Origin: Methanofollis formosanus
Lineage (GTDB): Archaea > Halobacteriota > Methanomicrobia > Methanomicrobiales > Methanofollaceae
Reading direction: 5' to 3'
NCBI RefSeq assembly: GCF_019633745.1
Contig: NZ_CP037968.1
Location: 2,424,789-2,488,788 of the forward strand
Length of the DNA stretch: 64,000 bases
The notes below the pieces were generated by a model that was not told the origin of the DNA, did no database searches, and was given only the letters and a program-made list of their open reading frames with translations. Within the stretch, counting starts at the first letter, position 1, and every line of letters starts with the position of its first letter. This document shows, in pieces, positions 35,669 to 50,988 of the stretch. A program made the translations under genes and the position numbers.

Positions 35669-38600
35669 TCAGCCCGCAGCAAGATCCACATGGCACTCCC
35701 TCATCTCATACGGCACCACCACCACATCCTCAAGCGTCTTTGAACCTTCCTTCCCCACGACCTTCACATCATAGGATCCGATGCCGAGGTAATGGAAGGT
35801 GTGAGGCGTTTTTTCTCCGGTGTCCTTGCCGTAGAGATAGATCTTCGCACCCTCGGGGGTGCTCCCCACCGTAAGCGACCCGTACGCATAGGGTCCCAGG
35901 TCCAGACCGACCTCCGCGTCCTGCTCCTTATGGCGATTGTCGGTCAGCAGGACCACCTCCCCCTCAGGAATATATCCCGGCTTTGAGAGCGAGACCAGGT
36001 GCCTGCCCTCCGAGATGTTCTCGACGAGATATGGCGTCGCATATCCGGTAGAGAGGCCGTCGATGAATATCAAAGCCCCTGAAGGCACTGAAGTGACGAG
36101 GAGTCCGCAGGGTGCGGTGAGCGAAGACCCGATGACCACCGTCTCGTTCGATTGAACGGTATTCAGGATCTTCTGCGAGAAGAAACTGCCATTGTCATGG
36201 ACCGTGACATACGCATCGATCCCAACGACATCGACGTTCTTTGGAAGCTTGTACCCCAGATACCTGCCGTTGACCGAGAAGGGAGAGCCCGAATATCCCT
36301 CTGACTCAATCGAGAGCGACCGCTCAAGCCCTTTCGAGCCACTGCTGAATTTCACTAGCGACACTGAGTTCTTCACGATCCATACTCGTTCTTTCTCATT
36401 CGCGAACTCGACATTTTTCATCTTCACCTTGATCGTATGCAGTCCTTCTTTCAGCCCGTAGACGAGTGCGGGTGTCTTTTTGTTGCTCTTCCTGCCGTCC
36501 ACATAGATCTCTGCCCCCTCAGGGAAGGACTCGACATACACCCCGCCATGCCGGTTCTCCTCCCACCCGCGCAGCGGCCCGGTGGCGACCATCTGCTCCT
36601 TCAACTCTGAAGAACCCGATTCAAATTGTAGATGGATCTCGTCGTCGCGCTCAAGATAGACCGTTTCCTCCACCGGTTCGAACCTGTCCATGCTCATCCT
36701 GATGGTGTGGGTCCCCCCGGATAACGACTCAAGGGTGGCGGGCGTCGTCCTGCCGGTGTACTCTCCGTCGAGATCGATGAGGGCCCCAGGCGGAGTGGAG
36801 AGGATGGAGAGGGCAAACTGCATCGTCGCGACATCAACCTGAGTGGGTGCCGGGGTGACCGCCGGCGTTTCAACAGGAGCCGTTGGCGCGATCATCTGCC
36901 CGGATAAATTGCCGGCCATCATCGCGGGGTCAGGTGAGGGGACGGACGCCTCTCCTGAGATATCGATCCCGAATATCCCGAAGAATGCGGTCACAAAGCC
37001 ACCGATCAGGTCGAAGAGCGGTTGAAAGATCCCATGATCGCAATCTTCACCCCTTTCCATGAGCGCATATATCCCTCCCTGCCTGATCCTGGCGGAGAGG
37101 CTGCCATCTGTAACATCCGCCTCCACCGGTTGCCATTGGTCCAGAGAATCGTCGTATCTGACAAGACGGACCCCTGAAAGCCCGAGCCGGTCGGTATGGA
37201 TGACCAGCAGGAGAGGAATATCGGCCACCATATCATCATCACCGATTGCGTACGCCCGCAGGGCGTCGCCGGGTCTGAGCACCTCCAGTCTCAGCGCTGA
37301 GAGAGGTTTCCCGGCACCGTCGGTGATCACCGTCCCTTCGGAGATGAAGAGTTCGACCGCCCCCTCGTCGAAGGTGAGGTGCGTGGCCTCAAGCCTCTCA
37401 TTCGATTCGTTCAGCGTGAACCGCTCGCTGCTTCCGGTCGACGTCATCCCCTGAGTGCCGGAAAGATTCGCGGCGGACGTGACATTCACCGGCGCCCCGG
37501 CCGGCGGGGTTCCATGCCTGACAACAAGGATAATCCCCCGGTTCTCCATGTAGTCACCTTTCATTGAGGTGATATAACTCTGGATTCCGGCCTCGTTCTC
37601 CGACGGCATCAGATAGGGCCTGACATCTATCCCGGCCACACTGATCGCAGACGATCCTCCGGTGAGGAGATTGAACCACTCACCTTCATTGAAGGTGATC
37701 CGATGCTCGTCATCGTCCTCCCCCGACCCGGCCGTGGTCACCAGGATAAGCCGCGCTTCCTTCGTATTCGCAAGGTTGATCTCGCCGTCGAAGAGTGCCG
37801 TCGTGATGCAGTCGTCGCTCGTGGTGCCAAAGTCGGGGTTGGCATAGAGGGTGTCGGAGCCCTCTGCGATCCAGTAGGTGATCTCTGGTGCTGCCGGGTC
37901 TTCGACCATGACCAGCACACCCGGGCCATAGGTCGCGAAGACATCGTCTTTTCGCCCATCGTTGGTTACCGTCACCATATGGTCGCCGGCCGCGCCGCCC
38001 TTGATCCCGGAGATGTTATAGGCATGGGTCTCGAGGAGATAGTTGTAGATGCCTTCGTTTTTCCGGTCACGGTAGACCTTATCGGCCTTGATCTCGACAC
38101 CGTCGACCTTCAGCGTGATCCTGCTGTTGGTCCCCTCTTTGCGCTTCTCGTCGTGTCCCCAGGTGGTGTAGATGTAGAGTCTTGCATACCTGACCGTACC
38201 GTTCTCAGGTGCCGGGATCGTGATCGCAAACTCCCGGCTCTCCCCGGCATGGATCAGTCCGGTATAGTCGCTGAACTCATGATACGTGAGGTTGCCGTGG
38301 AGTGTGCCGGTGGTGAAGAGATCCAGTCTCTTGCCGGTGTATCCGAACTCTGGATCGATCTCTCCATCCGAACCGCCAGAGTCGCCTCCGGAAGACCCGA
38401 ATGTCAGGTCCACTCCGACGATCTCGTCCTCCTGTACCACCACCATCTGGTATGCGGGTTCATATCCCTCCTTCCTCACTTCAACGGTATATTTGCCGAT
38501 AATGAGGCCGTCGATAGTTGCCGGGGTCTGGAGAGATGTGTTTGTCATTTCCTGGTAGTCGCCCCCTTCGAGGTATATCCAGGCTCCTGACGGTTCGCTC

Positions 38601-39808
38601 GTCACCTCGATGCTCCCGGTGCGCGCTTCGAGATCGAAGTGGACGGTGGTGTTCTCCCCCTTCCTCACCTCGATCCACTGATCCTCGGAGGCGTGGTACC
38701 GCTCGTCCAGTTCGACCCGCACTGCGTGTTCGCCGGCCTCGACTCCGCTGATGGTCGTGTTGGTGACCCACTGGGTCTCTTCGTCGTCAAGGTAGACCAC
38801 CGCACCGGCCGGAGATGAGGTCACTTCGAGGTTCCCGACCTCTTTGCCCGGGTAGCGGACCGAGAGAACAGCGAGCGGGATCTTGAAATACGCCCCAAGA
38901 TAGCCCCCGCCGCTCCCGCTGACACTGAGGTCCCTGGTGTAGGTGAAAAGACTGTCAGACCAGGGGAGGACCAGGTCGGTGACATCTTCGGTATGGTAGC
39001 CGGAGTACGCCCCCTGCGGCTCCGGGGCCTCGATGGATTCTGAGTTGAACGTGAATTCCCCTACTTTGCTTGCCATATGGACAAGCGAGAGTTCGGCGAC
39101 GTACTCACGCTCGTCATCTTCAGGGAGATCGCCGGTGGCAAAGGTCGTCTCTCCTTCATAGGTCTCGCCCAGATAATCCTCGACATAATACGAGTGGACG
39201 TCATGTCCCTGGTTCACCCAGTAATACACCTCGTCGCTGTCGCCGTCGTCATAGGCGACGACCAGGGTGACGATCTTGATCCTCCCGTCAAAGGTGCCTG
39301 TATATCCCTCAGGTTGATCGACCTTGACTTTGGCGACGACCTCCCTCTTTTTGATCGCGTCGGTGACGTCATACCACATCAGGTAGTCGCTCGTCACCCG
39401 GTTGCAGTGTTCGTTCACCCAGACCGGTCCGGAACCGCCGTCGATCGGGAATGAGTACGGCACCCGCAGTTCCTCCACCTCCAGGGTCTGTGTCCCGGAT
39501 CCGCCGTCGAATTTTACCGTTGCACGATGTTCGTAGTTGTTCTGCATATGGGCGCAGTAGACGGACACATAGAGGCGTGCCCATTTGATCTCCGTGTATT
39601 CAGGCAGGGTATACTTCTTTGAGACGTCACGGTCCATTCCTGTGCCGACAAAGGAGTTTACGTAGACCCCGCCTGAGACGACGCCTTCGTCGACGGTCGT
39701 GAGAGGGATGCCTCCCACATACTGGTCGGCAGCGACGCAGGCCGGGAGGGTGAGAAGGAGAACGGTGAGAAACACTGCCGCCCGTGCAGATCTGCTCTCC
39801 GTCGCCAC
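35669..39808 (-). CDS. Giant secreted DUF3344/PEGA surface protein
   Basis: This 1379-residue extracytoplasmic protein has a signal peptide (about residues 8-27). The modules in order are DUF3344 (about 28-320, with VWVNEHCNRVTSDYLMWYDV and YYWVNQGHDVHSYY), two PEGA repeats (about 325-395 and 398-470; NLEVTSSPAGAVVYLDDEET), a second DUF3344 (about 490-780; ITYWIAEGSDTLYANPDFGT), a beta-rich segment (about 790-945), a short hydrophobic stretch (IFQPLFDLIGGFVTAFFGIF), then about four more PEGA-like repeats to the end (for example SILSTPPGALIDLDGEYTGR). No C-terminal anchor or sorting motif is seen. PEGA and DUF3344 occur in archaeal cell-surface proteins; the binding partner is unknown. The permease gene ends 3 bp upstream. 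Confidence 0.88.
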   Translation of the reverse strand: MATESRSARAAVFLTVLLLTLPACVAADQYVGGIPLTTVDEGVVSGGVYVNSFVGTGMDRDVSKKYTLPEYTEIKWARLYVSVYCAHMQNNYEHRATVKFDGGSGTQTLEVEELRVPYSFPIDGGSGPVWVNEHCNRVTSDYLMWYDVTDAIKKREVVAKVKVDQPEGYTGTFDGRIKIVTLVVAYDDGDSDEVYYWVNQGHDVHSYYVEDYLGETYEGETTFATGDLPEDDEREYVAELSLVHMASKVGEFTFNSESIEAPEPQGAYSGYHTEDVTDLVLPWSDSLFTYTRDLSVSGSGGGYLGAYFKIPLAVLSVRYPGKEVGNLEVTSSPAGAVVYLDDEETQWVTNTTISGVEAGEHAVRVELDERYHASEDQWIEVRKGENTTVHFDLEARTGSIEVTSEPSGAWIYLEGGDYQEMTNTSLQTPATIDGLIIGKYTVEVRKEGYEPAYQMVVVQEDEIVGVDLTFGSSGGDSGGSDGEIDPEFGYTGKRLDLFTTGTLHGNLTYHEFSDYTGLIHAGESREFAITIPAPENGTVRYARLYIYTTWGHDEKRKEGTNSRITLKVDGVEIKADKVYRDRKNEGIYNYLLETHAYNISGIKGGAAGDHMVTVTNDGRKDDVFATYGPGVLVMVEDPAAPEITYWIAEGSDTLYANPDFGTTSDDCITTALFDGEINLANTKEARLILVTTAGSGEDDDEHRITFNEGEWFNLLTGGSSAISVAGIDVRPYLMPSENEAGIQSYITSMKGDYMENRGIILVVRHGTPPAGAPVNVTSAANLSGTQGMTSTGSSERFTLNESNERLEATHLTFDEGAVELFISEGTVITDGAGKPLSALRLEVLRPGDALRAYAIGDDDMVADIPLLLVIHTDRLGLSGVRLVRYDDSLDQWQPVEADVTDGSLSARIRQGGIYALMERGEDCDHGIFQPLFDLIGGFVTAFFGIFGIDISGEASVPSPDPAMMAGNLSGQMIAPTAPVETPAVTPAPTQVDVATMQFALSILSTPPGALIDLDGEYTGRTTPATLESLSGGTHTIRMSMDRFEPVEETVYLERDDEIHLQFESGSSELKEQMVATGPLRGWEENRHGGVYVESFPEGAEIYVDGRKSNKKTPALVYGLKEGLHTIKVKMKNVEFANEKERVWIVKNSVSLVKFSSGSKGLERSLSIESEGYSGSPFSVNGRYLGYKLPKNVDVVGIDAYVTVHDNGSFFSQKILNTVQSNETVVIGSSLTAPCGLLVTSVPSGALIFIDGLSTGYATPYLVENISEGRHLVSLSKPGYIPEGEVVLLTDNRHKEQDAEVGLDLGPYAYGSLTVGSTPEGAKIYLYGKDTGEKTPHTFHYLGIGSYDVKVVGKEGSKTLEDVVVVPYEMRECHVDLAAG

Positions 39809-39811
39809 CCT

Positions 39812-41035
39812 TCACACCCCCGTCCTGATCGCTGTCACCGGATTGAGGCGTGCCGCTTTCAATGCCGGATAAAATCCTGATATCTGGGAGAGCACCACCG
39901 CAATGACGATCCCGAGCAACAGGAGGCCGGGCGTGATCAGGGTGATATCCGCGTCTGCAAAGGTGGCGAAGGTGTCGCCTAGTTGAGCGATGATAAAGGG
40001 TTTTCCGAAGATGTTGATGACGCCGGCGAAGGCGATCCCGAGGAGATCGCCGATCACTCCGCCGATCAGCCCGATATACAGGCACTCGAAGAGGATGAGC
40101 TGGAGAACGTTGCCGGGAGATGCGCCGATAGCCATGGTGATCCCGATCTCTCTTGTCCGCTCGAAGATCGAGGTGATCATCGTGTTCATGATCATCAGGG
40201 CGCCCACGATGAGTGACACCCCGGCAAAGAACGCGAGGAGCAGGACGACCACATCCATCAGACGGTTCACTGACTCGATCTGCTCGAAGGCCCCTGTGGC
40301 AGTGAGACCCAGGGCCTTGACGCCGTCCACCACACCGAAGACCTCTTCGGGATGGTCGACCCTGATGAGGACGCCGTCCAAAGACGCCTCGCCGCCGCGC
40401 AGATCCTGTGCGACCCCACGGTCGATCAGCATCATCTGATCAAATTGGTCGTCCCGTTCCTGCAGCACGCCGACCAGCGTGAAGTCCACCTGCACGTCCA
40501 CCGGCATCCCGTCCTCGTCGTACTGCCTGATCAGGATCGGGATCGTGTCACCGAGGCGGATCCCTTCATAGCGCTGGAGCGTCTCAGCGAGGTCGTGGCC
40601 GAGGACCGCCTGCCTGGAACCCGGATCGATCGGATCTCCCTTGAAGTATCGGGGTTTGATCACCTCCCCGATCTCTGTCGGGTCGATGCCTATCACACCC
40701 AGGTAGGTCTGTCGTTTTGTTGCGTAGGCTTCTCTGACAACCGCCGATGAAGCCTTGATATGGGGTATTGCCGCGATCTCGTCGATCTTTGCGGGGGTGA
40801 TCAGGTGGAGCGTGCCGCCGCGGATATCCGCGGTCGCCTCGATGAGGGTCAGATCTGACTGCTCCTTGATCGCTTCCACCGCCTGATATCTGATCCCTTC
40901 CCCCAGCGAGATGGTCCCGACCACCGCCGCCACGCCGATGGCGATGCCGAGGGCGGTGAGCAGGACGCGCATCCGTTTCCGTGCGACCTGCCTGGCCGCG
41001 ATCTTCAGAGACTCAAAGACTCGTGCGATCTCCAT
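39812..41035 (-). CDS. MacB/FtsX-type ABC transporter permease
   Basis: About 407 residues with the MacB layout. One N-terminal helix (about residues 20-42, RMRVLLTALGIAIGVAAVVG) is followed by a large extracytoplasmic MacB_PCD domain (about 45-255). Three C-terminal helices belong to the FtsX domain (VVLLLAFFAGVSLIVGALMI; LFECLYIGLIGGVIGDLLGI; LITPGLLLLGIVIAVVLSQI). ERTREIGITMAIGAS is the diagnostic cytoplasmic loop. The start at 41035 lies one base after the ATPase stop. MacB-type pumps power envelope processes from the cytoplasm rather than moving substrates through a pore; the client here is plausibly one of the surface proteins. Confidence 0.93.
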   Translation of the reverse strand: MEIARVFESLKIAARQVARKRMRVLLTALGIAIGVAAVVGTISLGEGIRYQAVEAIKEQSDLTLIEATADIRGGTLHLITPAKIDEIAAIPHIKASSAVVREAYATKRQTYLGVIGIDPTEIGEVIKPRYFKGDPIDPGSRQAVLGHDLAETLQRYEGIRLGDTIPILIRQYDEDGMPVDVQVDFTLVGVLQERDDQFDQMMLIDRGVAQDLRGGEASLDGVLIRVDHPEEVFGVVDGVKALGLTATGAFEQIESVNRLMDVVVLLLAFFAGVSLIVGALMIMNTMITSIFERTREIGITMAIGASPGNVLQLILFECLYIGLIGGVIGDLLGIAFAGVINIFGKPFIIAQLGDTFATFADADITLITPGLLLLGIVIAVVLSQISGFYPALKAARLNPVTAIRTGV

Positions 41036-41036
41036 C

Positions 41037-41699
41037 TCACACCACCTTCCCGTCGAGGAGTTCGATGGAACGGTCGGCACGCTTCCCGAGTTCCCGTTCA
41101 TGGGTCACGATCAGAAACGTCGTCTCCCGCTCCTGGTTCACCTCGCGCATCAACTCAAAGATCCCGTCACTTGTCTTTGAGTCCAGGTTCCCGGTCGGTT
41201 CGTCGGCAAGCACGATCGACGGGTTCCCGACAAGGGAGCGGGCGATCGCCACCCGTTGCTGTTCGCCGCCGCTCATCTCGCGGGGATAGTGATCGGCTCT
41301 CTCTGCGAGCCCCACCATCTCGAGAAGGGCCAGCGCTCGCTCTTCTCTCACCGCCCTCCTGGCATAGTTGAAGAGGAGGGGATATTCCACATTCTCCCTG
41401 GCCGTCAGCGTCGGGATGAGATTGAAGTTCTGGAAGACAAAACCGAGCGCCTCTCTTCTGAGGGTGATGAGCGCCTGCCTATCTTCGAAGTCGACTCTCG
41501 TTCCGTTGATATATACGTCTCCTCCGGTCGGCCGGTCGAGTCCGCCGAGGATATTGAGGAGCGTGCTCTTCCCGCTCCCGCTCCGCCCGAGAAGGGTGAC
41601 GAACTCTCCTCTCTCAAGGGCGAGGTTTACGTTCCTGAGTGCAGTCACCTGCTCGGTGTACGCCTTGCTCAGGTCTCGTGTCTGCATGATGACGTCCAT
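41037..41699 (-). CDS. MacB/LolD-type ABC transporter ATPase
   Basis: The 220-residue ATPase has Walker A LLGRSGSGKSTLLNILGG, Q-loop FVFQNFNLIPTL, signature MSGGEQQRVAIARSL, Walker B IVLADEPTGNLD and switch His in IVTHERELG. The DEPTGNLDSKT block is typical of the MacB/LolD group. The start at 41699 has GAGGTG just upstream; 41687 is a possible second ATG. It lies between the short DUF3344-like gene and the permease, all on the same strand. Confidence 0.95.
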   Translation of the reverse strand: MDVIMQTRDLSKAYTEQVTALRNVNLALERGEFVTLLGRSGSGKSTLLNILGGLDRPTGGDVYINGTRVDFEDRQALITLRREALGFVFQNFNLIPTLTARENVEYPLLFNYARRAVREERALALLEMVGLAERADHYPREMSGGEQQRVAIARSLVGNPSIVLADEPTGNLDSKTSDGIFELMREVNQERETTFLIVTHERELGKRADRSIELLDGKVV

Positions 41700-41703
41700 T
41701 TTT

Positions 41704-42678
41704 TCACCTCTTTTCAGCCCACAACACGGCATTGGTAAGGACAAGATAGTCTTTTTCGTCCCTGACAGCCGCAAAATTGTTCTCAGACCGGAGATAGGGC
41801 AGCACATCCCGGCGGTCGATCCCGACCTGCCTCGTCTCGTCGGAGTCGAAGATGTTCACCCACTCCCGGCCATTTGATCCCGGGAACAGAGCCGAGAGAA
41901 TCGATTCAAAGAACGAGGGCATGCTGGTCTCTCCCTCGCGGTTCAGAAAGAGCCGGTTGATCTCGGGGATGTTCTCCCTCGTATAGCCACCAGAGGGAGC
42001 GATGAGGAGGAGTTCGGCAGATGAGAGATCTGACTTCTCGACTTTTCCTTCGAACTTGATCCTGCTCGTCGCCATGGGAGGAGTGATCCCGTAACTGTTG
42101 TACAGGAGATCGGCCCCTTCTTTGATCCAGCAGACGACTTCAGGCGACTCCGGGCACTCGTAAATGACGAGCAGACCGATCCCCTGGACCACGAAGGTGC
42201 GGTTGTCGTCTGCGGTATTCTCAAGGACGGCGGTGAAAGCGTTCTTCCCTGGAGAGAGGTCGGCCGTCTCGAAGATGTCCATCCCTGAGAAAAAATCGTT
42301 CTTGCTCACGAACCCCTTGGAGTCGACAGACCGTCCCGTGCTGTTGAGGAGTGCGCCCGTGTCGGTGCGGGTGACTGATACCGAGGGATAGATCGCCTTC
42401 TGGTCGAGTTTGCTCCAGGCCCAGTAGACATAGAGGCGCTGGTATCGTATTGTTGCATCTTCAGGGAGTTCGACCTCGAAGTCGACGGCGTACCGGTCCC
42501 CTGGGTTCAGTGCTCCGCTGTAGGTGCTGTTGCCGAGGGTGAAGAGGTGGGCGCCGTTGAATTCGTCATGATATGCCGTCTCAAGTGGTTTATCGCCGGC
42601 ATAGGTGGCAGAGACCGCAGGGAGGAAGAGGAGCACGCCGAGGAGAGCGACGCTGATGGCCAGCCTATGGGAAGACAT
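41704..42678 (-). CDS. Secreted DUF3344-type surface protein (single module)
   Basis: The 324-residue protein has a signal peptide (SSHRLAISVALLGVLLFLPA, cleavage near VSATYA). One DUF3344-like module spans nearly the whole length (RYQRLYVYWAWSKLDQ; VVCWIKEGADLLYNSYGITP; AELLLIAPSGGYTRENIPEI). It is shorter than its neighbours and lacks PEGA repeats or an anchor, so it may be released or may be a partner subunit of the ABC system directly downstream (4 bp). The start at 42678 overlaps the preceding gene by 14 bp. Confidence 0.82.
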   Translation of the reverse strand: MSSHRLAISVALLGVLLFLPAVSATYAGDKPLETAYHDEFNGAHLFTLGNSTYSGALNPGDRYAVDFEVELPEDATIRYQRLYVYWAWSKLDQKAIYPSVSVTRTDTGALLNSTGRSVDSKGFVSKNDFFSGMDIFETADLSPGKNAFTAVLENTADDNRTFVVQGIGLLVIYECPESPEVVCWIKEGADLLYNSYGITPPMATSRIKFEGKVEKSDLSSAELLLIAPSGGYTRENIPEINRLFLNREGETSMPSFFESILSALFPGSNGREWVNIFDSDETRQVGIDRRDVLPYLRSENNFAAVRDEKDYLVLTNAVLWAEKR

Positions 42679-44467
42679 AGTCGCCCTCCGCCGCGTTGTT
42701 CCCCCGGTCGGCATCTCTGATCGTACCGGCCTCGTCGGCGACCACCCGCAAACGATGTTTTCCCGGTGTCGTGAAATGAGAAAGAGCGATATCGACTGTT
42801 GCCCCGGCCTCCAGTCCTCCATCCACAGGTTTCACCGCCGCCTTCTCCCCGTCCAGATAGACGGTGAGGTCAAAGGGCGGTGTGTCGCTCCCGCCGAGGT
42901 TTGTGATCGTGACCGGGACGGTGTAGTCTTCGTACCCGGCGGCGGCGGCCGGTGATATGGCCAGTGGGCACGATGCCGCAATGACCGCTCCTGCGATCAG
43001 CATGGCGGCAAGTTTCCCGCCTGGCGGGCGCCTGGCGAGGAGAACCGCGATACAGAGCCCTGCAACCAGAGCACAGAAAGGAGAGGGGGAGTGTTGCGTG
43101 TCCGGCTCTCCGGCACCGGTACGGGTCGGGGTGCCGATCTTCACCGCAAGATCAGGGATCGTCCCGACCCTGACGGTGTCCGAAGCCTCGTTGTCTGCAG
43201 GGTCGAGGTCGTTCCCGGCGTCGACCCGTACCGAGAGTGTGTGCCGGCCTTCGTCCAGCGTGACATTTGCCGCAACCTCCTGAACTCCCGAGACGTCCGG
43301 TTCGACGGTTATTGTTTCTACGGGCTCTCCGTCGACCGAGAAGACGGCCGTGATCATCCCTTCCGGCCGCGCTCCGTGGTTTCTCACCGTTGCCTGCACC
43401 GTCGCCTCTTCACCGGCGTAGGCCCCTCTCACCTCCGGGATATCCACGGAAAGGTCGGGGGCCGGGTCGGCACCCGGTCTCTTCACGGTAAGAATGGCAC
43501 AGCAGGGATGGATGTAGTCTTCACCCTCAGGTTTGTCTCCGGTGGTGGTGATCGTACCGTCGTCGTCGAGGTCCCTCCCGCGTTCGAAGAGGACGTGGTT
43601 CGTCTCCTTGAGGAGAGCGCCGACATCGAAGGTCTCGACATCGACATATCTTGCCTCGGTCCCGAGGCCGCCCGTGGCGTCGAAACATCGTTCGTTGCCG
43701 ATGTCCCGCGCGCCTGCCGGGTAAAGGGAGGGATCGTCAGGGGCGACACCGAGGTCTTCGCCATTGAACCTGACATAATCAGGCTGTCCCTTCGTCGAGG
43801 CCAGCAGCAGTATGGTGAGGTCTGCGGTGGCACCTTCCAGCAGGCCTGCCTTCTCAAACGAAATCTCGCTCTTGTCATGTCGCGTGGGGTTTGTCCCGGC
43901 CCACCCCTCTCCATGGAGGTTCTCGTTTCCTTCGGCGATCCAGTATCTGGTGGTCGGTCCGTCTTTATCCTCGACGACGGCGACGACGAAGATACCATAG
44001 GCCCTTCCATCGATCCTGCTCTCAGGCAGGCCCCTGCTGGTCGTCAGGGAGACGGTGTTCTTGCCGCCATGGAGTTGATCGGTACAGTCGTGCGCGATCC
44101 AGTAGACGCCATAGCCCGAGACATAGGTCTCTTCATTCTGATCATCTTTCCCGAAGAGTGAGCGTCTGACCGGGACACCGTTGTTGACGGTGAGTTCTTC
44201 CCATCCGGTGTAGCGTTCGGTTCCGCCCCAGACACCTGTATAGACTCTTGCCCAGATTGGCTTGTCCGGGAGAGAGAAGGTGCACTCAATAGGCGGGGCC
44301 TCAAGCCCATAGGTGCCGAAGGTGAGCACATCCCCCCTGACTTCCCCCTGGGCCGTCATATGGAGGGGGATGCCTTCAAAATCGTACACTGCCGATACCG
44401 GGGCGGCAAGGAGGAGTATTGCCGCGCAGAAAAGACATCTTATCAAGGGAGAGGGGGAAAATTTCAT
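42665..44467 (-). CDS. DUF3344/CARDB surface protein with internal anchor and second signal-like segment
   Basis: The 600-residue protein has a signal peptide (about residues 8-27). A DUF3344 module (about 28-325; YWIAHDCTDQLHGGKNTVSL, RYWIAEGNENLHGEGW) is followed by a CARDB domain (about 335-430; PDLSVDIPEVRGAYAGEEAT). A hydrophobic stretch comes next (PSPFCALVAGLCIAVLLARR), immediately followed by another (LAAMLIAGAVIAASCPLAIS, then PAAAAG), and last a CARDB-like domain (about 515-600). The middle looks like the C-terminal anchor of one protein joined to the signal peptide of another. It is the first gene of the leftward block; the probable TATA lies about 30 bp before the ATG. Confidence 0.85.
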   Translation of the reverse strand: MKFSPSPLIRCLFCAAILLLAAPVSAVYDFEGIPLHMTAQGEVRGDVLTFGTYGLEAPPIECTFSLPDKPIWARVYTGVWGGTERYTGWEELTVNNGVPVRRSLFGKDDQNEETYVSGYGVYWIAHDCTDQLHGGKNTVSLTTSRGLPESRIDGRAYGIFVVAVVEDKDGPTTRYWIAEGNENLHGEGWAGTNPTRHDKSEISFEKAGLLEGATADLTILLLASTKGQPDYVRFNGEDLGVAPDDPSLYPAGARDIGNERCFDATGGLGTEARYVDVETFDVGALLKETNHVLFERGRDLDDDGTITTTGDKPEGEDYIHPCCAILTVKRPGADPAPDLSVDIPEVRGAYAGEEATVQATVRNHGARPEGMITAVFSVDGEPVETITVEPDVSGVQEVAANVTLDEGRHTLSVRVDAGNDLDPADNEASDTVRVGTIPDLAVKIGTPTRTGAGEPDTQHSPSPFCALVAGLCIAVLLARRPPGGKLAAMLIAGAVIAASCPLAISPAAAAGYEDYTVPVTITNLGGSDTPPFDLTVYLDGEKAAVKPVDGGLEAGATVDIALSHFTTPGKHRLRVVADEAGTIRDADRGNNAAEGDYVFP

Positions 44468-45049
44468 ACGAAAGGAGGTACGGTCACACTAGATATTAAT
44501 ATTGTTCTATTTGTTATGAATTATTGTATTTGATCCGAAGAAATTAGAGACTCAACGCGTGCCTGCTTATCACTTAGATGTCTGGTACTTTTTTTGATTT
44601 GTTGACTCACGCGTGAGTCGAGAGTACACCCCGCAGATCGGATGGGGGTGCATGGATTCATGTTCTCCCCCCGGAAGTCAGCCGCTGTCCTATGCTATCT
44701 CCTTTGTGAGGATCCGGAGGGCACAGCCACAAGGCAGGAGATATGTATTCAGAATACCTGGAATGAAGAGATTTGATCGGGGCAATGATCCATATCCAGG
44801 ATAATTTTGGAGTATGCTCTTTATCAGCGATTTTATAGGGTCGTCTTATTCAGAGAATTCTATCCTCTCTAGTTCCTCGGCAGGAGGAATATTACAAATT
44901 TTTATTTTTTGATTCATTAATAATATCAATTATTTTAATTTTATGATCATTTATGAGATATAAAAATATATATCACACTTGGGCCATCCATGCCTGTAGG
45001 GGAGGTTCAATCCCCCCACCTAGAACAAGACCAGTATCGGAGGAAATAC
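44468..45049. promoter_or_regulatory. AT-rich divergent control region of the surface-protein cluster
   Basis: No gene is seen in this 580-bp gap. At the left, the minus strand has AATATTAATATC (44491-44505) as probable TATA of the leftward operon. From 44880 to 44980 the sequence is very AT-rich, with TATAAAAATATATA at 44960-44973 as the TATA box of the rightward gene. This would start transcription near 44995 and leave a leader of about 55 bases. In that leader lies a GC-rich hairpin (44999-45017) that resembles a tRNA T-arm (GGTTCAATCC in the loop). CGGAGGAAATAC precedes the ATG at 45050. Confidence 0.55.
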
Positions 45050-46009
45050 ATGAAAAAAAGCAACAAATGTATGTTTTCAGGCATGCTTGTGCTGCTGGCG
45101 GTGCTCGCGATGGCGGCGCCGGCGGCAGCCGACCCGTGGATTGGAGGAGACAAACTGGTCAACGCGAACGGAACCTCAGGGAACGTGTCCGGTGGTCTCT
45201 GGTTCGACGCGTATCCCGGCTTTGACTATGCGTATTCTACGCCGGTGACGAAAAATTTCTCGCTTCCGTGCACTGCAGGTAATGTCGAATGGGCGCGTCT
45301 CTATGTCACGACCTACATCGGGAGCATGACCAAAAACTACCCCCTGAACACGACGGTGGAGTTCGACGGCGGATCGGGCTATGGGACCCTGGGTTCGGAG
45401 ATCATGAACACCACCTACACCTATCCGGAGAACAGCAGTGCTGATGGAACGGTCTGGATCAACAACCACTGCAACCGGGTGACGAGCGACTGCCTGATGT
45501 GGTACGACGTGACCAACGATATCACCTCATCGAGCGTCGCGGCGCGCGTGCACACGGCCTGCCCTAACGGCACGCAGCCGTATGACGGCCGGGTGAAGAT
45601 GATCACGCTTGTGGTCGCATATAACGATCCCTCGAGTGGGAAAGAGATCTCTTACTGGGTGAACCAGGGTCACGACACCGATTCCAAAAAAGCTGACCAG
45701 AATGGCTGCTCTTACATCGGGAACACCACATTCAGCACAGTAACATCCTCGGTTATCGATGCAGACCTGACGGCCATCTACTTGGCGAGTTACAACGGTA
45801 ATTACACCTTCAACGGCAACACACTCACCTGGAGCAACCCGTGCCAGGGATCGTACTTCGGCTATCAGAGTTGGAATGTCACCAACTACATTACCAGCGG
45901 AGATAATTTCATGACATTCGACCGGAACACCACCGATCCATCACTGTACGGCGGGTACTTCAAGATCCCGCTTGCGCTCCTGACTGTGGAGGAGGAGCAG
46001 GAAGTGTAA
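45050..46009 (+). CDS. Secreted DUF3344 surface protein (single module)
   Basis: The 319-residue protein has a signal peptide (MFSGMLVLLAVLAMAAPAAA). One complete DUF3344 module is close in sequence to the first module of the giant leftward protein: compare VWINNHCNRVTSDCLMWYDV and SYWVNQGHDTDSKK here with its counterparts. It is rich in Asn-x-Ser/Thr sites, consistent with N-glycosylation. No anchor or PEGA repeat follows; the protein ends in EEEQEV after the module. GGAGG sits eight bases before the ATG. A hairpin terminator follows the gene, so it appears monocistronic. Confidence 0.88.
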   Translation: MKKSNKCMFSGMLVLLAVLAMAAPAAADPWIGGDKLVNANGTSGNVSGGLWFDAYPGFDYAYSTPVTKNFSLPCTAGNVEWARLYVTTYIGSMTKNYPLNTTVEFDGGSGYGTLGSEIMNTTYTYPENSSADGTVWINNHCNRVTSDCLMWYDVTNDITSSSVAARVHTACPNGTQPYDGRVKMITLVVAYNDPSSGKEISYWVNQGHDTDSKKADQNGCSYIGNTTFSTVTSSVIDADLTAIYLASYNGNYTFNGNTLTWSNPCQGSYFGYQSWNVTNYITSGDNFMTFDRNTTDPSLYGGYFKIPLALLTVEEEQEV

Positions 46010-46353: not shown

Positions 46354-49300
46354 ATGATGAACGGAGCTGATAGGAAGATGCGAAAAACATTTCTGCTTCT
46401 CTGTATCGTTGCACTACTGTGCATGGTTGCTCTCGTTGCGCCGGTGATGGCCGCCAACGAAACATTCCCGGCAGACGCCGACTCATATGTTCGGTTTGGC
46501 ACATCGTTTGAGAATAGAAATTATGGTACTGCTACATCTCTTAGTACTCTGCAAACTTCGCTGGGAGTACATCTGAGAAGTCTTATCCACTTCGATCTTT
46601 CGTCGATCCCCAAAGGGGCGGAGATCGAGTCGGCAACACTCTATGCGTATATGTCCGCCAGAGCAGGCGACAGGGAGGTTGGTGCTTACCGCGTGACCGA
46701 TACGTGGAACGAGTCCGGCGTCACCTGGAAAACGCAACCTTCTGTGGATACACAACCGACCAGTTCGATCGATCCTGGTTCGGCAGTGAATACCTGGATC
46801 TGCTGGAACGTCACGCAGGACGTACAGGCATACGCGGACGGTACTGCAAATTATGGGTGGATGATTAAAAATACAGACGAATCGACGCCATCTATGGATC
46901 AGAAAGTCACGCTGAGGAGCCGCAACTATGCCGACGCCACACAACACCCCTACCTGAACGTAACCTACACAATCCCCCCGCTTGTTCTGACCACGATCGA
47001 GGTTTCTCCCGCGACGGCGAGCGTGGCGGTGAACGCCACGCAGCAGTTCAACGCCACCGCAAAGGACCAGAACGGAGATGAGATGACGAATGTCTGCTTC
47101 ACCTGGAGGAGCAGCAACGAGACCGTCGGCACGGTGAACACTAGTGGGTACTTCACTGCCCTCGCCGCTGGCACGACCACGATCACCGCGTCAGCGGAGA
47201 ATGTGAGTGGGGCGGCGACGGTGACGGCAAGCGTTCCCACCTGTGACCTTACCTTTGCGGGCGGCGGAGCATATCCTATTACAAATGCTGTATTCACCCG
47301 CATGCAAAACACCATCCGGGTCGGCAGGATTACCAATCTCGGTTCAAATATGTCTCCTGAAACGGAGGTCGAGGTCCGTTCGAGCGACGGTTTCGTCGGC
47401 AGGGCTACACTCCCTCCGGTCCAACCTGGAGAAAAAGCACCGTATGTCTTTCTCATCGACACGACCATCAGGGAGTCTGAAGGCGGGAAGGTGACCTACA
47501 CCACTATCATCGACCCCGACAACACTGTCGTGGAGATCTCTGAGACCAACAATGCCAAAACAACTCCGCCCCAACAGGTCGGATATAACGGCTACCTGGG
47601 TAAGCGGTACATGGATAGCGGCAATGACCTCACCACGGTGCGGACCTACGACCTCCGCGGCGACATCATCAATTCATTCGGTGACAGCCATTATATCTCC
47701 GGCAAAGGCAAATGGACGAACTACACCGTGAACTGGACCGGCGACGACCTGCTGCTCCCGGAAGGTGCGACCGTCCGCGACGCCTGGCTCTATGTGCCGT
47801 ACTGCTGGGACAGCACAAACGTAGCACCGAACAACCTCTCAATCACTTTCAACGGCGATCCGGTGCCCTATGTGAACTGGTACCATGACAAGGCGAACTT
47901 CGGCACTTATGGGGGTATGGTCTACGGCCTGATGACCTATAATGTGACCACTTCCTATAAGGTGGGCGTCAACAACACGGCACTCTTCGAGCGGGAGAAG
48001 GCAGGCACCACCATCTGCCCGGCCGGGTTCACCCTTGCGGTGGTCTACGAAGACCCGTCAGTCACCAGAAAGCAGATCTTCGTCAACGAAGAGTTTGACG
48101 CCCTTGGTGCCGACTCCGTAAATTATGGCACGAACGAGAGTCGGGCAACGGCATATGCGCCGTTCAGCGGCATGACCCTCGACACAGCGAACGTCAGCCG
48201 CGCAAACCTCACGACGTTCGTCCCTTGGGGCAACAGTGGGGAGGGCAACCTGTACTTCAACGGCAACCGGATCGGGAGCGGTGTATGGAACTACGGTCCC
48301 CTTACTGTGGGTGGCTCAGACTCCCCACAGGTGGCTGTGGACGACCGCGAGGTGACGGCGTACCTCAACGCGACCGGGAACGAAGCGACGATCCAGAGTT
48401 CCGAATCCAGCCAACCACTGATGGTGGCAGCACAGACCTTCCTCGTCATTGAGTATGCCGATCCCGCCGCCCCGGACCTCACGGTCAGCACCCTCATGCC
48501 AAACAAGAACGAGATCTTCTCCGCGACTGGAAATACCTACACCGCGAAGATCACGAACATCGGGACGGCCGATGCGGGTGCGTTTTCGGTCGAATTCAAG
48601 GTGAGCGGCGTCACCGGTGCGGTTGCCGTGCCCGACGGCCTCGCCGCGGGTGCGAACACCACCCTCACCTGGACCGACTCGACGGTGCATGCCGCGGGCG
48701 AGCCGGCGACCTTCACCGTCACCGCCGACCCGGGGTGCATGATCGACGAATCGAACGAGGAGAACAATGTCAGATCTTTTGAGAAGACCGTCGTGGACAA
48801 CGGTTACCGCGGCAAGCGGTGGACCGGCGGTGAGGACCTCACCACTGCCGTGACCTATGACGTCCGCGGCGACCTGGCGTACTCTTCTGGCGACAGTCTC
48901 TATCTCGGTGCCGCGGACAACCCGCACTGGACGGCGTACACCGCGAACTGGACCGTCAACGACCTTGACATCCCGGCCGACGCCACCGTCACCGCCGCAC
49001 GGCTCTACGTCCCTTACACCTGGGACAAAGGTCCGGTCTTCCCTGGCAATGTCACCCTCACCTTCAACGACATCCCGGTCGAGAGAGCCGCCTTCTATAG
49101 CGACGAAAAGATGTGGGGGAGTTCATATCCGTACGGCATGACCGTCTACGACGTCACCGAACCGTTCAGCACCGACGGCAACGCCGCCGTCCTGACAAAC
49201 ATCTACCCCGGAGGCGGGAACGTCTCGGTACGCGGAATGGTGCTTGCGGCGGTCTACGACGACGGCGTCACCGCCCCGCACACCATTGTCATCAACGAGG

Positions 49301-50988
49301 GCTTCGACCTCCTGTACGGCGGCAGCGGCCAGGCGACCACCCCTGAACAGGCGACCGCCTACGCACCCTTCACTCTCGACACCACCAACGCCGTCAACGC
49401 TACCCTCGTCGCCCTCGCACCCGGCGCAGGGCCGAACGAAGGCGAACTGATCTTCAACGACAACGTGTGGACCGACGCCTGGAACTTCACCGGGCAGAGC
49501 CAGATCGGTGCGGCCGAACGCGACGTGACCTCGCTCCTCGCAGGCGAAGGCAACGTTGCAGCGTTCCAGAGCAGTGGGGACTGGATGGAAGCGGCCGCCG
49601 CCTTCCTGGTGGTGACCAATCCGGTCCCGAACGGCTGCATCGAAGTCACCTCGACGCCGGAAGGAGCGGCGATCTTCCTTGATGGCGAGGATACCAGCAA
49701 GGCGACAAACACTGTCCTTGAAGACATCCCCGCCGGGGAGCATGTGGTCACGCTGAAACTCGAAAACTACGCCGACGCCTCAACGCCGGTCACCGTCGTC
49801 GAAGGGGAGACCGCAACCGTCGACCTCTCGCTGACCACCCTCACCGGCAGCCTCGCCGTCACCTCTACCCCTGACGGCGCTTCGATCTTTATCGACGGTG
49901 CCGACACCGGCGAGACGACCGACACCACCCTCACCGGCATCGCCGTCGGCGACCACACCCTCGCCCTGAAGAAGGAAGGGTACCGCGAGGCGTTCGCTGA
50001 GGTGACGATCCGGCACGACGAGACCACCGACCTCCACCTCGACCTCGAGAAGGCGGTCGGGTGCATCGCCGTCACCTCGACGCCCGAAGGTGCAGCGATC
50101 TTCTTGGACGGGGAGGAGACCGGCGAGACGACGAACGCGATCCTTGAAGGAATCGCGGTCGGCGAGCACACCATCACCCTGAAGAAATCCGGATACATGG
50201 AGGCCTCGGCGACGGTGACCGTTATCGACACCGAGACAGCATCAGTAGAATTCACCCTCGCCGAACCCGCAGGAAACATCGTGGTCACCTCCTCCCCGGA
50301 CGGTGCCAGAGTCTTCCTGGACGGAAAAGATACCGGCGAGCAGACGAACACCACGCTCACGCGGGTCTCGCCCGGCGAACATCAGGTCGCGGTGAGCCTT
50401 GAGGGGTATCTTGAGGCGGAGAAGGCGGTGACGGTCGTCGAAGGCGAGAGCGTCGCCGTCCATTTCGACCTCTCGCAGGCCTCGATCACCCTCCTCCCCG
50501 GCTGGAACTTTGTCTCGACCCCGAAGACCCTCGCACCCGGCCACGACACCATCGCCATCTTCGACGAGGTGGACACCGCCGACCACTCGGTATTGTTGTA
50601 CAACGGGACGAAACAGTGGGAGGCGATGAGTTCCGAAGAAGCGTTCAGGCCGCTCGACGGGATCTGGATCTATGCCAACGGCACCTACGAGATCCCGCTT
50701 GCCTTCGACACCGGCGGGGCCTCCGCCCCGCCGGAGAAGGCCCTCGACGAGGGCTGGAACGCCATCGGGTTCACCGACACTGTTCCCGAACCCGCGGCAA
50801 ACACTCTCAGGTCGGTCGAGAAATGCTGGGCAACCCTCATCGGGTTCGACGCCGGCGCACAGGAGTACAAGACCTCGATCATCCGCGGCGCCGATGGACG
50901 GCACGGTGAGATGCGTGCGATGGAACCGATGGACGGCTACTGGCTGTACATGAGCGATGCGGACCTGCTCTGCGCCATCGGAGCGTGA
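46354..50988 (+). CDS. Giant modular surface protein: DNRLRE, Ig-like, CARDB, DUF3344 x2, PEGA x4
   Basis: This 1544-residue protein has a signal peptide (about residues 10-34). The modules in order are DNRLRE (about 35-205; ETFPADADSYVRFGTSFENR), bacterial Ig-like group 2 (about 211-285), CARDB (about 296-390), DUF3344 (about 411-705), a second CARDB (about 707-805), a second DUF3344 (about 815-1085), four PEGA repeats starting near 1092, 1164, 1235 and 1306, and a closing domain from about 1377 (LLPGWNFVSTPKTLAPG ... MDGYWLYMSDADL). There is no C-terminal anchor. A second ATG eight codons in is possible. The next gene, a membrane-anchored surface protein, overlaps or abuts it, so the two may work together. 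Confidence 0.88.
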   Translation: MMNGADRKMRKTFLLLCIVALLCMVALVAPVMAANETFPADADSYVRFGTSFENRNYGTATSLSTLQTSLGVHLRSLIHFDLSSIPKGAEIESATLYAYMSARAGDREVGAYRVTDTWNESGVTWKTQPSVDTQPTSSIDPGSAVNTWICWNVTQDVQAYADGTANYGWMIKNTDESTPSMDQKVTLRSRNYADATQHPYLNVTYTIPPLVLTTIEVSPATASVAVNATQQFNATAKDQNGDEMTNVCFTWRSSNETVGTVNTSGYFTALAAGTTTITASAENVSGAATVTASVPTCDLTFAGGGAYPITNAVFTRMQNTIRVGRITNLGSNMSPETEVEVRSSDGFVGRATLPPVQPGEKAPYVFLIDTTIRESEGGKVTYTTIIDPDNTVVEISETNNAKTTPPQQVGYNGYLGKRYMDSGNDLTTVRTYDLRGDIINSFGDSHYISGKGKWTNYTVNWTGDDLLLPEGATVRDAWLYVPYCWDSTNVAPNNLSITFNGDPVPYVNWYHDKANFGTYGGMVYGLMTYNVTTSYKVGVNNTALFEREKAGTTICPAGFTLAVVYEDPSVTRKQIFVNEEFDALGADSVNYGTNESRATAYAPFSGMTLDTANVSRANLTTFVPWGNSGEGNLYFNGNRIGSGVWNYGPLTVGGSDSPQVAVDDREVTAYLNATGNEATIQSSESSQPLMVAAQTFLVIEYADPAAPDLTVSTLMPNKNEIFSATGNTYTAKITNIGTADAGAFSVEFKVSGVTGAVAVPDGLAAGANTTLTWTDSTVHAAGEPATFTVTADPGCMIDESNEENNVRSFEKTVVDNGYRGKRWTGGEDLTTAVTYDVRGDLAYSSGDSLYLGAADNPHWTAYTANWTVNDLDIPADATVTAARLYVPYTWDKGPVFPGNVTLTFNDIPVERAAFYSDEKMWGSSYPYGMTVYDVTEPFSTDGNAAVLTNIYPGGGNVSVRGMVLAAVYDDGVTAPHTIVINEGFDLLYGGSGQATTPEQATAYAPFTLDTTNAVNATLVALAPGAGPNEGELIFNDNVWTDAWNFTGQSQIGAAERDVTSLLAGEGNVAAFQSSGDWMEAAAAFLVVTNPVPNGCIEVTSTPEGAAIFLDGEDTSKATNTVLEDIPAGEHVVTLKLENYADASTPVTVVEGETATVDLSLTTLTGSLAVTSTPDGASIFIDGADTGETTDTTLTGIAVGDHTLALKKEGYREAFAEVTIRHDETTDLHLDLEKAVGCIAVTSTPEGAAIFLDGEETGETTNAILEGIAVGEHTITLKKSGYMEASATVTVIDTETASVEFTLAEPAGNIVVTSSPDGARVFLDGKDTGEQTNTTLTRVSPGEHQVAVSLEGYLEAEKAVTVVEGESVAVHFDLSQASITLLPGWNFVSTPKTLAPGHDTIAIFDEVDTADHSVLLYNGTKQWEAMSSEEAFRPLDGIWIYANGTYEIPLAFDTGGASAPPEKALDEGWNAIGFTDTVPEPAANTLRSVEKCWATLIGFDAGAQEYKTSIIRGADGRHGEMRAMEPMDGYWLYMSDADLLCAIGA

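Follow-up and report, generated by a model that had tools for sequence, protein, structure and literature searches.

The 600-residue protein encoded on the minus strand of a 64,000-nucleotide stretch of the Methanofollis formosanus genome (the window, to which all positions below refer) carries in its interior two hydrophobic segments that look like an anchor followed by a signal peptide. This raises the question of whether two surface proteins have been joined here, whether the two segments form a membrane anchor, or whether the second of them acts as an internal signal peptide. A reading of the sequence alone had described an anchor-like helix with an RR end and then a signal-peptide-like stretch up to AAAAG, and both sequence and hydropathy agree with this description (residues 462-480 and 486-511). 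The N-terminal signal peptide aside, the two most hydrophobic stretches of the protein are found at about residues 460-478 (KD 1.99) and at residues 486-504 (KD 2.28). They are separated by RRPPGGK, and SPAAAAG-YEDYTVPV follows the second. The features of the protein are as follows.

42665..44467, minus strand: open reading frame of the 600-residue DUF3344-CARDB-hairpin-CARDB surface protein
44390..44467, minus strand: N-terminal signal peptide, residues 1-26, ending in APVSA (hydropathy and sequence)
43481..44380, minus strand: DUF3344 domain, residues 30-329 (Pfam PF11824, E 5.2e-36)
43187..43459, minus strand: first CARDB domain, residues 337-427 approximately (second of two Pfam CARDB stretches; model strands)
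43127..43156, minus strand: first strand of the second CARDB domain, PDLAVKIGTP, residues 438-447, preceding the hairpin (HMM gain on joining; model strand at 440-444; CARDB structure alignments)
about 43032..43084, minus strand: hairpin helix 1, residues 462-478 approximately, then RR (hydropathy, alignment)
about 43013..43031, minus strand: short basic hairpin loop with the five residues PPGGK, predicted to be cytoplasmic (net charge of the ortholog rows)
about 42956..43012, minus strand: hairpin helix 2, internal and signal-peptide-like, residues 486-504 (hydropathy; conserved c-region)
42935..42949, minus strand: AAAAG, residues 507-511, proposed signal peptidase I site with a cut after A509 or A510 (AxA motif in the clade)
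42668..42934, minus strand: remainder of the second CARDB domain, residues 512-600 (Pfam CARDB)

The assignment of the 600-residue protein to DUF3344 rests on a PF11824 score of 125.1 bits (gathering cut-off 27.2). In the text available of one paper, DUF3344 is named in a screen for fibrillar adhesins, and in that of another, DUF3344 proteins are called probable surface proteins. The loop between the two helices has a net positive charge in 37 of 38 ortholog rows, the remaining row being the one that lacks the hairpin, and from this charge the loop is assigned to the cytoplasm and the flanking parts on both sides to the exterior. The hairpin topology is thus predicted from hydropathy, charge and the conserved layout.

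Conservation and age of the layout

Matches to the protein are found in 21 of 61 relatives, in 47 of the 232 genomes of the order and in 48 of the 392 genomes of a phylum sample. A scan of contigs yielded 37 loci, Methanophagales among them. The ortholog set comprised 51 full-length sequences once three paralogue rows, truncated rows and near-copies at 90% identity had been taken out. The two-helix layout is present in 50 of these 51 non-redundant orthologs, which come from Methanomicrobiales, Methanophagales and other families. The only exception is L064 from an ANME-1 genome. In a tree of the N-terminal part, L064 branches within ANME-1 (support 97/81), which indicates that the hairpin was lost in this ortholog.

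A junction of this kind could result from the recent joining in frame of two genes for surface proteins, as proposed by the sequence-only reading, or from a frame error in sequencing or assembly, and it does resemble an anchor followed by a signal peptide. The shared layout of the orthologs argues against both. In addition, the reading frame is uninterrupted across the hairpin in all 18 full-length orthologs first collected, which disposes of the frame error considered for positions 42960-43120. The dN/dS of the hairpin is 0.23-0.29 against four of five close relatives, indicating purifying selection; the value of 1.41 against the nearest relative is based on only 9 substitutions.

Two separate genes at this point, as a fusion would lead one to expect in relatives, were not encountered: the C-terminal 170 residues were searched in the 232 genomes of the order and in the 392-genome phylum sample, and neither a split relative nor a stand-alone gene for the second half was found. 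With few exceptions, the full region lies in frames of about 600 residues; those met in the order search are two short frames and a long one (877 residues, a frame-shifted record). The short frames of L151 and L152 were rejected as split genes, since the contig of the former carries an undetermined base and that of the latter is broken or chimeric. Two short frames in the phylum sample start at or near a contig end. Likewise, L065 ends at the contig end, and L066, which stops near the hairpin and continues with bases that read like an ABC ATPase, was taken as a deletion or a broken contig. A recent fusion or a frame error is thus regarded as very improbable. Judged by these sequence comparisons, the hairpin layout is old and conserved and does not stem from a chance fusion.

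The second CARDB domain

According to the sequence-only reading, a fresh CARDB-like domain begins after the junction. The profile scores and structure models instead locate the first strand of this domain, PDLAVKIGTP, upstream of the hairpin. With the hairpin in place, the window protein matches the CARDB profile (PF07705) with 54.5 bits, and the match begins only at profile position 10. When the pre-hairpin strand was joined to the body, the score rose from 52.1 bits (body alone) to 60.6 bits, covering profile positions 2-99; a scrambled strand joined to the body gave 52.6 bits (a single control, window protein only). A gain on joining was obtained in all six orthologs tried (+2.0 to +10.1 bits).

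AlphaFold2 models were obtained for the whole protein (mean pLDDT 83) and for residues 431-600. Both contain a confident strand at residues 440-444, and the hairpin itself is of low confidence in the whole-protein model (pLDDT block means 36-61). The model of residues 431-600 aligns with the solved CARDB domains in full length, with 104 residues for 2l0d (chain 1-107; rmsd 2.0) and 106 for 3idu, at a Z of 14.4 in both cases. These CARDB alignments start at model residue 3 or 6 (433 or 436) and end at residue 170 (600). As the body comprises 89 residues, a match of 104-106 residues must take in residues before the end of the hairpin, and since the 2l0d chain is aligned from its residue 1 on, the strand that precedes the hairpin is the likely candidate. 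The same two structures were matched by the whole-protein model (Z 13.4), for which Foldseek returned general Ig/jelly-roll matches only.

Profile and structure match assign the second copy to CARDB as a full domain, first strand included. Following the models, the hairpin interrupts one Ig-like CARDB domain, separating its first strand from the remainder, and this domain can fold around the looped-out hairpin. A first strand beyond the hairpin also argues against an end-to-end fusion. Known CARDB structures (PF07705; 2l0d, 3idu, 2kl6) resemble the pre-hairpin strand and the post-hairpin body in fold and sequence, but the three matched chains are continuous, whereas here the first strand is followed by an insert of about 64 residues that contains two membrane helices. 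In the hairpin-less L064, the CARDB profile does not reach the upstream strand, which neither proves nor disproves the domain boundary. Other CARDB matches in the genome and in relatives (L004, L024, L025) are ordinary CARDB domains that lack a hairpin.

Signal-type ends of helix 2 and proposed processing

Helix 2 has the composition of a type I signal peptide, with a basic n-region, a hydrophobic h-region and an AxA c-region, at a position other than the usual N-terminal one. An AxA motif, defined after seeing the sequences as [PG]x0-3[AVS]xA within 16 residues after helix 2, is present in all 36 non-redundant orthologs of the window's clade (2000 shuffles: mean 19.4, maximum 28). As controls, the true N-terminal signal peptides of this clade carry the motif in 25 of 35 cases, and the ends of five permease helices in 9, 0, 6, 18 and 1 of 36.

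In the other clade (ANME-1 and the families f8 and f30, of which f8 may, as a guess, be Methanoperedenaceae), helix 2 ends in a lipoprotein-type signal of the form xx[GAS]C. This lipobox is found in 14 of 14 non-redundant rows and in two further partial sequences; its forms include LSGC, FSGC, FGGC and ITGC, usually followed by V/I and D/E, and TCGC in L119. One of the two signals, AxA or lipobox, is thus kept in 50 of 50 hairpin-bearing orthologs, although these rows are not independent, since one deep branch of the tree separates the two types and each was inherited within one clade. The partial sequence L152, outside the counted set, has a weak site only. A lipobox-like AASC near helix 2 of the window protein was not relied on, as its cysteine is missing in several near relatives. 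LspA (PF01252) scored above its cut-off in none of 23 genomes. As far as the available text of the source goes, AliA/AliB of Haloferax serve archaeal lipidation (PMC12186497), and by analogy an AliA/AliB-type route is a candidate for the lipidation of the lipobox orthologs.

On account of these conserved ends, helix 2 is taken as a real internal signal peptide. The reading that we favour, with moderate confidence and from sequence comparison, is that the hairpin holds an internal signal peptide that is cut (AxA type) or lipid-modified and cut (lipobox type), so that one Ig-like domain is shared by two chains. The sequence-only reading had likewise allowed for two products by an internal cut; this possibility is strengthened by the conserved AxA and lipobox ends, and the fusion origin from which it had been derived is not supported.

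The main rival is a two-helix hairpin anchor that is never cut: helix 2 would descend from a signal peptide, and a loop of the second CARDB domain would be held at the membrane with both of its sides outside. The basic inner loop between the two helices in 37 of 38 rows, a second CARDB domain that can fold around the hairpin, and the loss of the hairpin in only one of 51 orthologs are all compatible with such an anchor. An AxA or lipobox end would be superfluous for it, however, yet every hairpin-bearing ortholog has kept one, and such an end is missing from most of the five permease helices used as controls. We therefore consider an uncut anchor somewhat unlikely.

A different cut, by an archaeosortase before helix 1, would leave the N-terminal part lipid-anchored and release helix 2 and the rest as a separate piece. 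SP/TP does stand before helix 1 and basic residues after it, proteins of the archaeosortase family (TIGR04178) occur in 23 of the 23 genomes examined, and a precedent for a central ArtA site is described for HVO_0405 in the accessible part of the source (PMC7157517). This family is broad and present anyway, though, and neither the window protein nor helix 1 of two orthologs matched an NCBIfam CTERM model at E <= 1. PGF-CTERM matched at 8 places in the genome, 3 of them above the cut-off, and none at the gene of the 600-residue protein. Moreover, helix 1 of the ANME-1 and f8/f30 families carries no archaeosortase-type motif, and an internal archaeosortase signal is accordingly improbable.

With an internal signal peptide, the protein would be exported by its N-terminal signal peptide, and everything from DUF3344 through the first CARDB domain to the opening strand of the second one would come to lie outside the cell. 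Helix 1 would halt in the membrane, the basic loop would stay inside, and helix 2 would return outward as the internal signal peptide, so that the remainder of the second CARDB domain would also lie outside. In Methanomicrobiales and relatives, a signal peptidase may cut at the AxA site at the outer end of helix 2; in ANME-1 and relatives, the lipoprotein pathway may modify and cut at the lipobox cysteine. The predicted products are an N-terminal chain anchored by the hairpin and a small C-terminal chain, either free or lipid-anchored. They would stay together because strand A of one chain would complete the Ig-like CARDB fold of the other.

Parts of this arrangement have counterparts elsewhere. 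In Bradyrhizobium, the FbcH cytochrome b/c1 precursor is translated as a single chain whose internal signal peptide is cut by signal peptidase to give two proteins. The FbcH cut separates two complete proteins, in contrast to the cut predicted here inside one Ig-like domain. More generally, the internal signal peptides named here lie between complete domains, whereas the one proposed would sit within a single Ig-like domain, behind its first strand and ahead of its second. Domains of the GAIN/SEA type are cut inside the fold near one strand, with both chains staying together. They cut themselves, however, and here an inserted signal-peptidase-type site is proposed, with no autoproteolysis motif. 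Literature searches found no case of an internal signal peptide in archaea; the only match mentions the Streptomyces Rieske protein.

HVO_0405 of Haloferax volcanii is an archaeal surface protein that shares an internal anchor-like segment and a central cleavage site giving two parts; according to the accessible part of the source, it is a strain-specific fusion of two formerly independent genes that is cut by ArtA (PMC7157517). The present layout differs in being conserved across orders, in lying within one domain and in lacking a PGF-type signal, and it has a signal-peptidase-type end on the second helix. If the proposed processing holds true, one folded domain would be assembled from two chains flanking a membrane hairpin, at a position that deep archaeal lineages have kept with a type I or a lipoprotein-type signal. 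Cleavage would also offer a concrete function for DUF3344 surface proteins in methanogens and methane-oxidising archaea.

The conserved operon

The gene of the 600-residue protein heads a conserved operon on the minus strand, in which the likely start of the second gene overlaps the end of the first by 14 bases. The genes that follow it are listed below.

41704..42678, minus strand: second operon gene, a secreted DUF3344 protein (adjoining the hairpin gene in 29 of 31 loci)
41037..41699, minus strand: LolD-like ABC transporter ATPase, start uncertain (TIGR02211, 241.7 bits, under the family cut-off of 307.75)
39812..41101, minus strand: MacB/LolCE-like (FtsX-type) permease (NF007826, E 5.6e-26, and TIGR02212, E 6.8e-23, both under cut-off)
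35669..39808, minus strand: 1379-residue surface protein with DUF3344 and PEGA, end of the conserved run (domain matches; locus comparison)

Neighbours were counted in those 31 of the 37 contig-scan loci, some of them near-copies, in which the hairpin gene is full-length or nearly so (the truncated L065-L070 were excluded): the second DUF3344 gene is found in 29, the ATPase in 28 and the permease in 29. The locus L053 stops at a contig end. In the f8 family (L123-L125, L127-L129), the ATPase adjoins the hairpin gene, and no matching permease was found in the stretch examined. The sole hairpin-less ortholog (L064/L131, genome G287) has neither transporter gene alongside; the genes found there instead seem to encode a decarboxylase and a radical SAM protein, besides others of a housekeeping type. 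The joint absence of hairpin and adjoining ABC transporter would fit a shared function. Synteny makes the LolD/MacB-type ABC transporter and the second DUF3344 protein, both encoded in the operon, the probable partners of the proposed two-chain complex.

The adjoining ATPase and permease resemble LolD and MacB/LolCE of the LolCDE and MacB (type VII) transporters, and the lipobox of the ANME-type partner fits a machine that handles lipoproteins. They differ in scoring under the curated cut-offs, as the equivalog thresholds for LolD (241.7 against 307.75), LolCE (81.2 against 362.45) and MacB (91 against 966) are all missed. Archaea are not known to have an outer membrane of the Gram-negative type that could serve as a lipoprotein destination. 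The operon thus links DUF3344 proteins to a LolCDE/MacB-like transporter in organisms without such a membrane. As a tentative extension, the protein may be a surface receptor split inside an Ig-like domain, its chains joined by one swapped strand and separable by pulling or by the LolCDE/MacB-type transporter, with class I and class II signal peptides exchanged at one internal position during evolution.

Several loci vary the gene order or add copies. At L062/L141, no ATPase match is present, and a shortened second gene lies between the hairpin gene and the permease. The contig of L122 (G266:C97) carries the hairpin gene twice, with DUF3344 and permease genes and no ATPase gene beside one copy. 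The genome from which the window comes contains the entire run once more, from the hairpin gene through DUF3344, ATPase and permease to the DUF3344-PEGA gene, about 28 kb past the window copy (L142, 8760-19499); the two hairpin proteins are 52% identical. Within the window, two more DUF3344 proteins are encoded on the other strand (44990-46009 and 46354-50988), the larger of which carries CBM96, Big_2, CARDB and PEGA domains.
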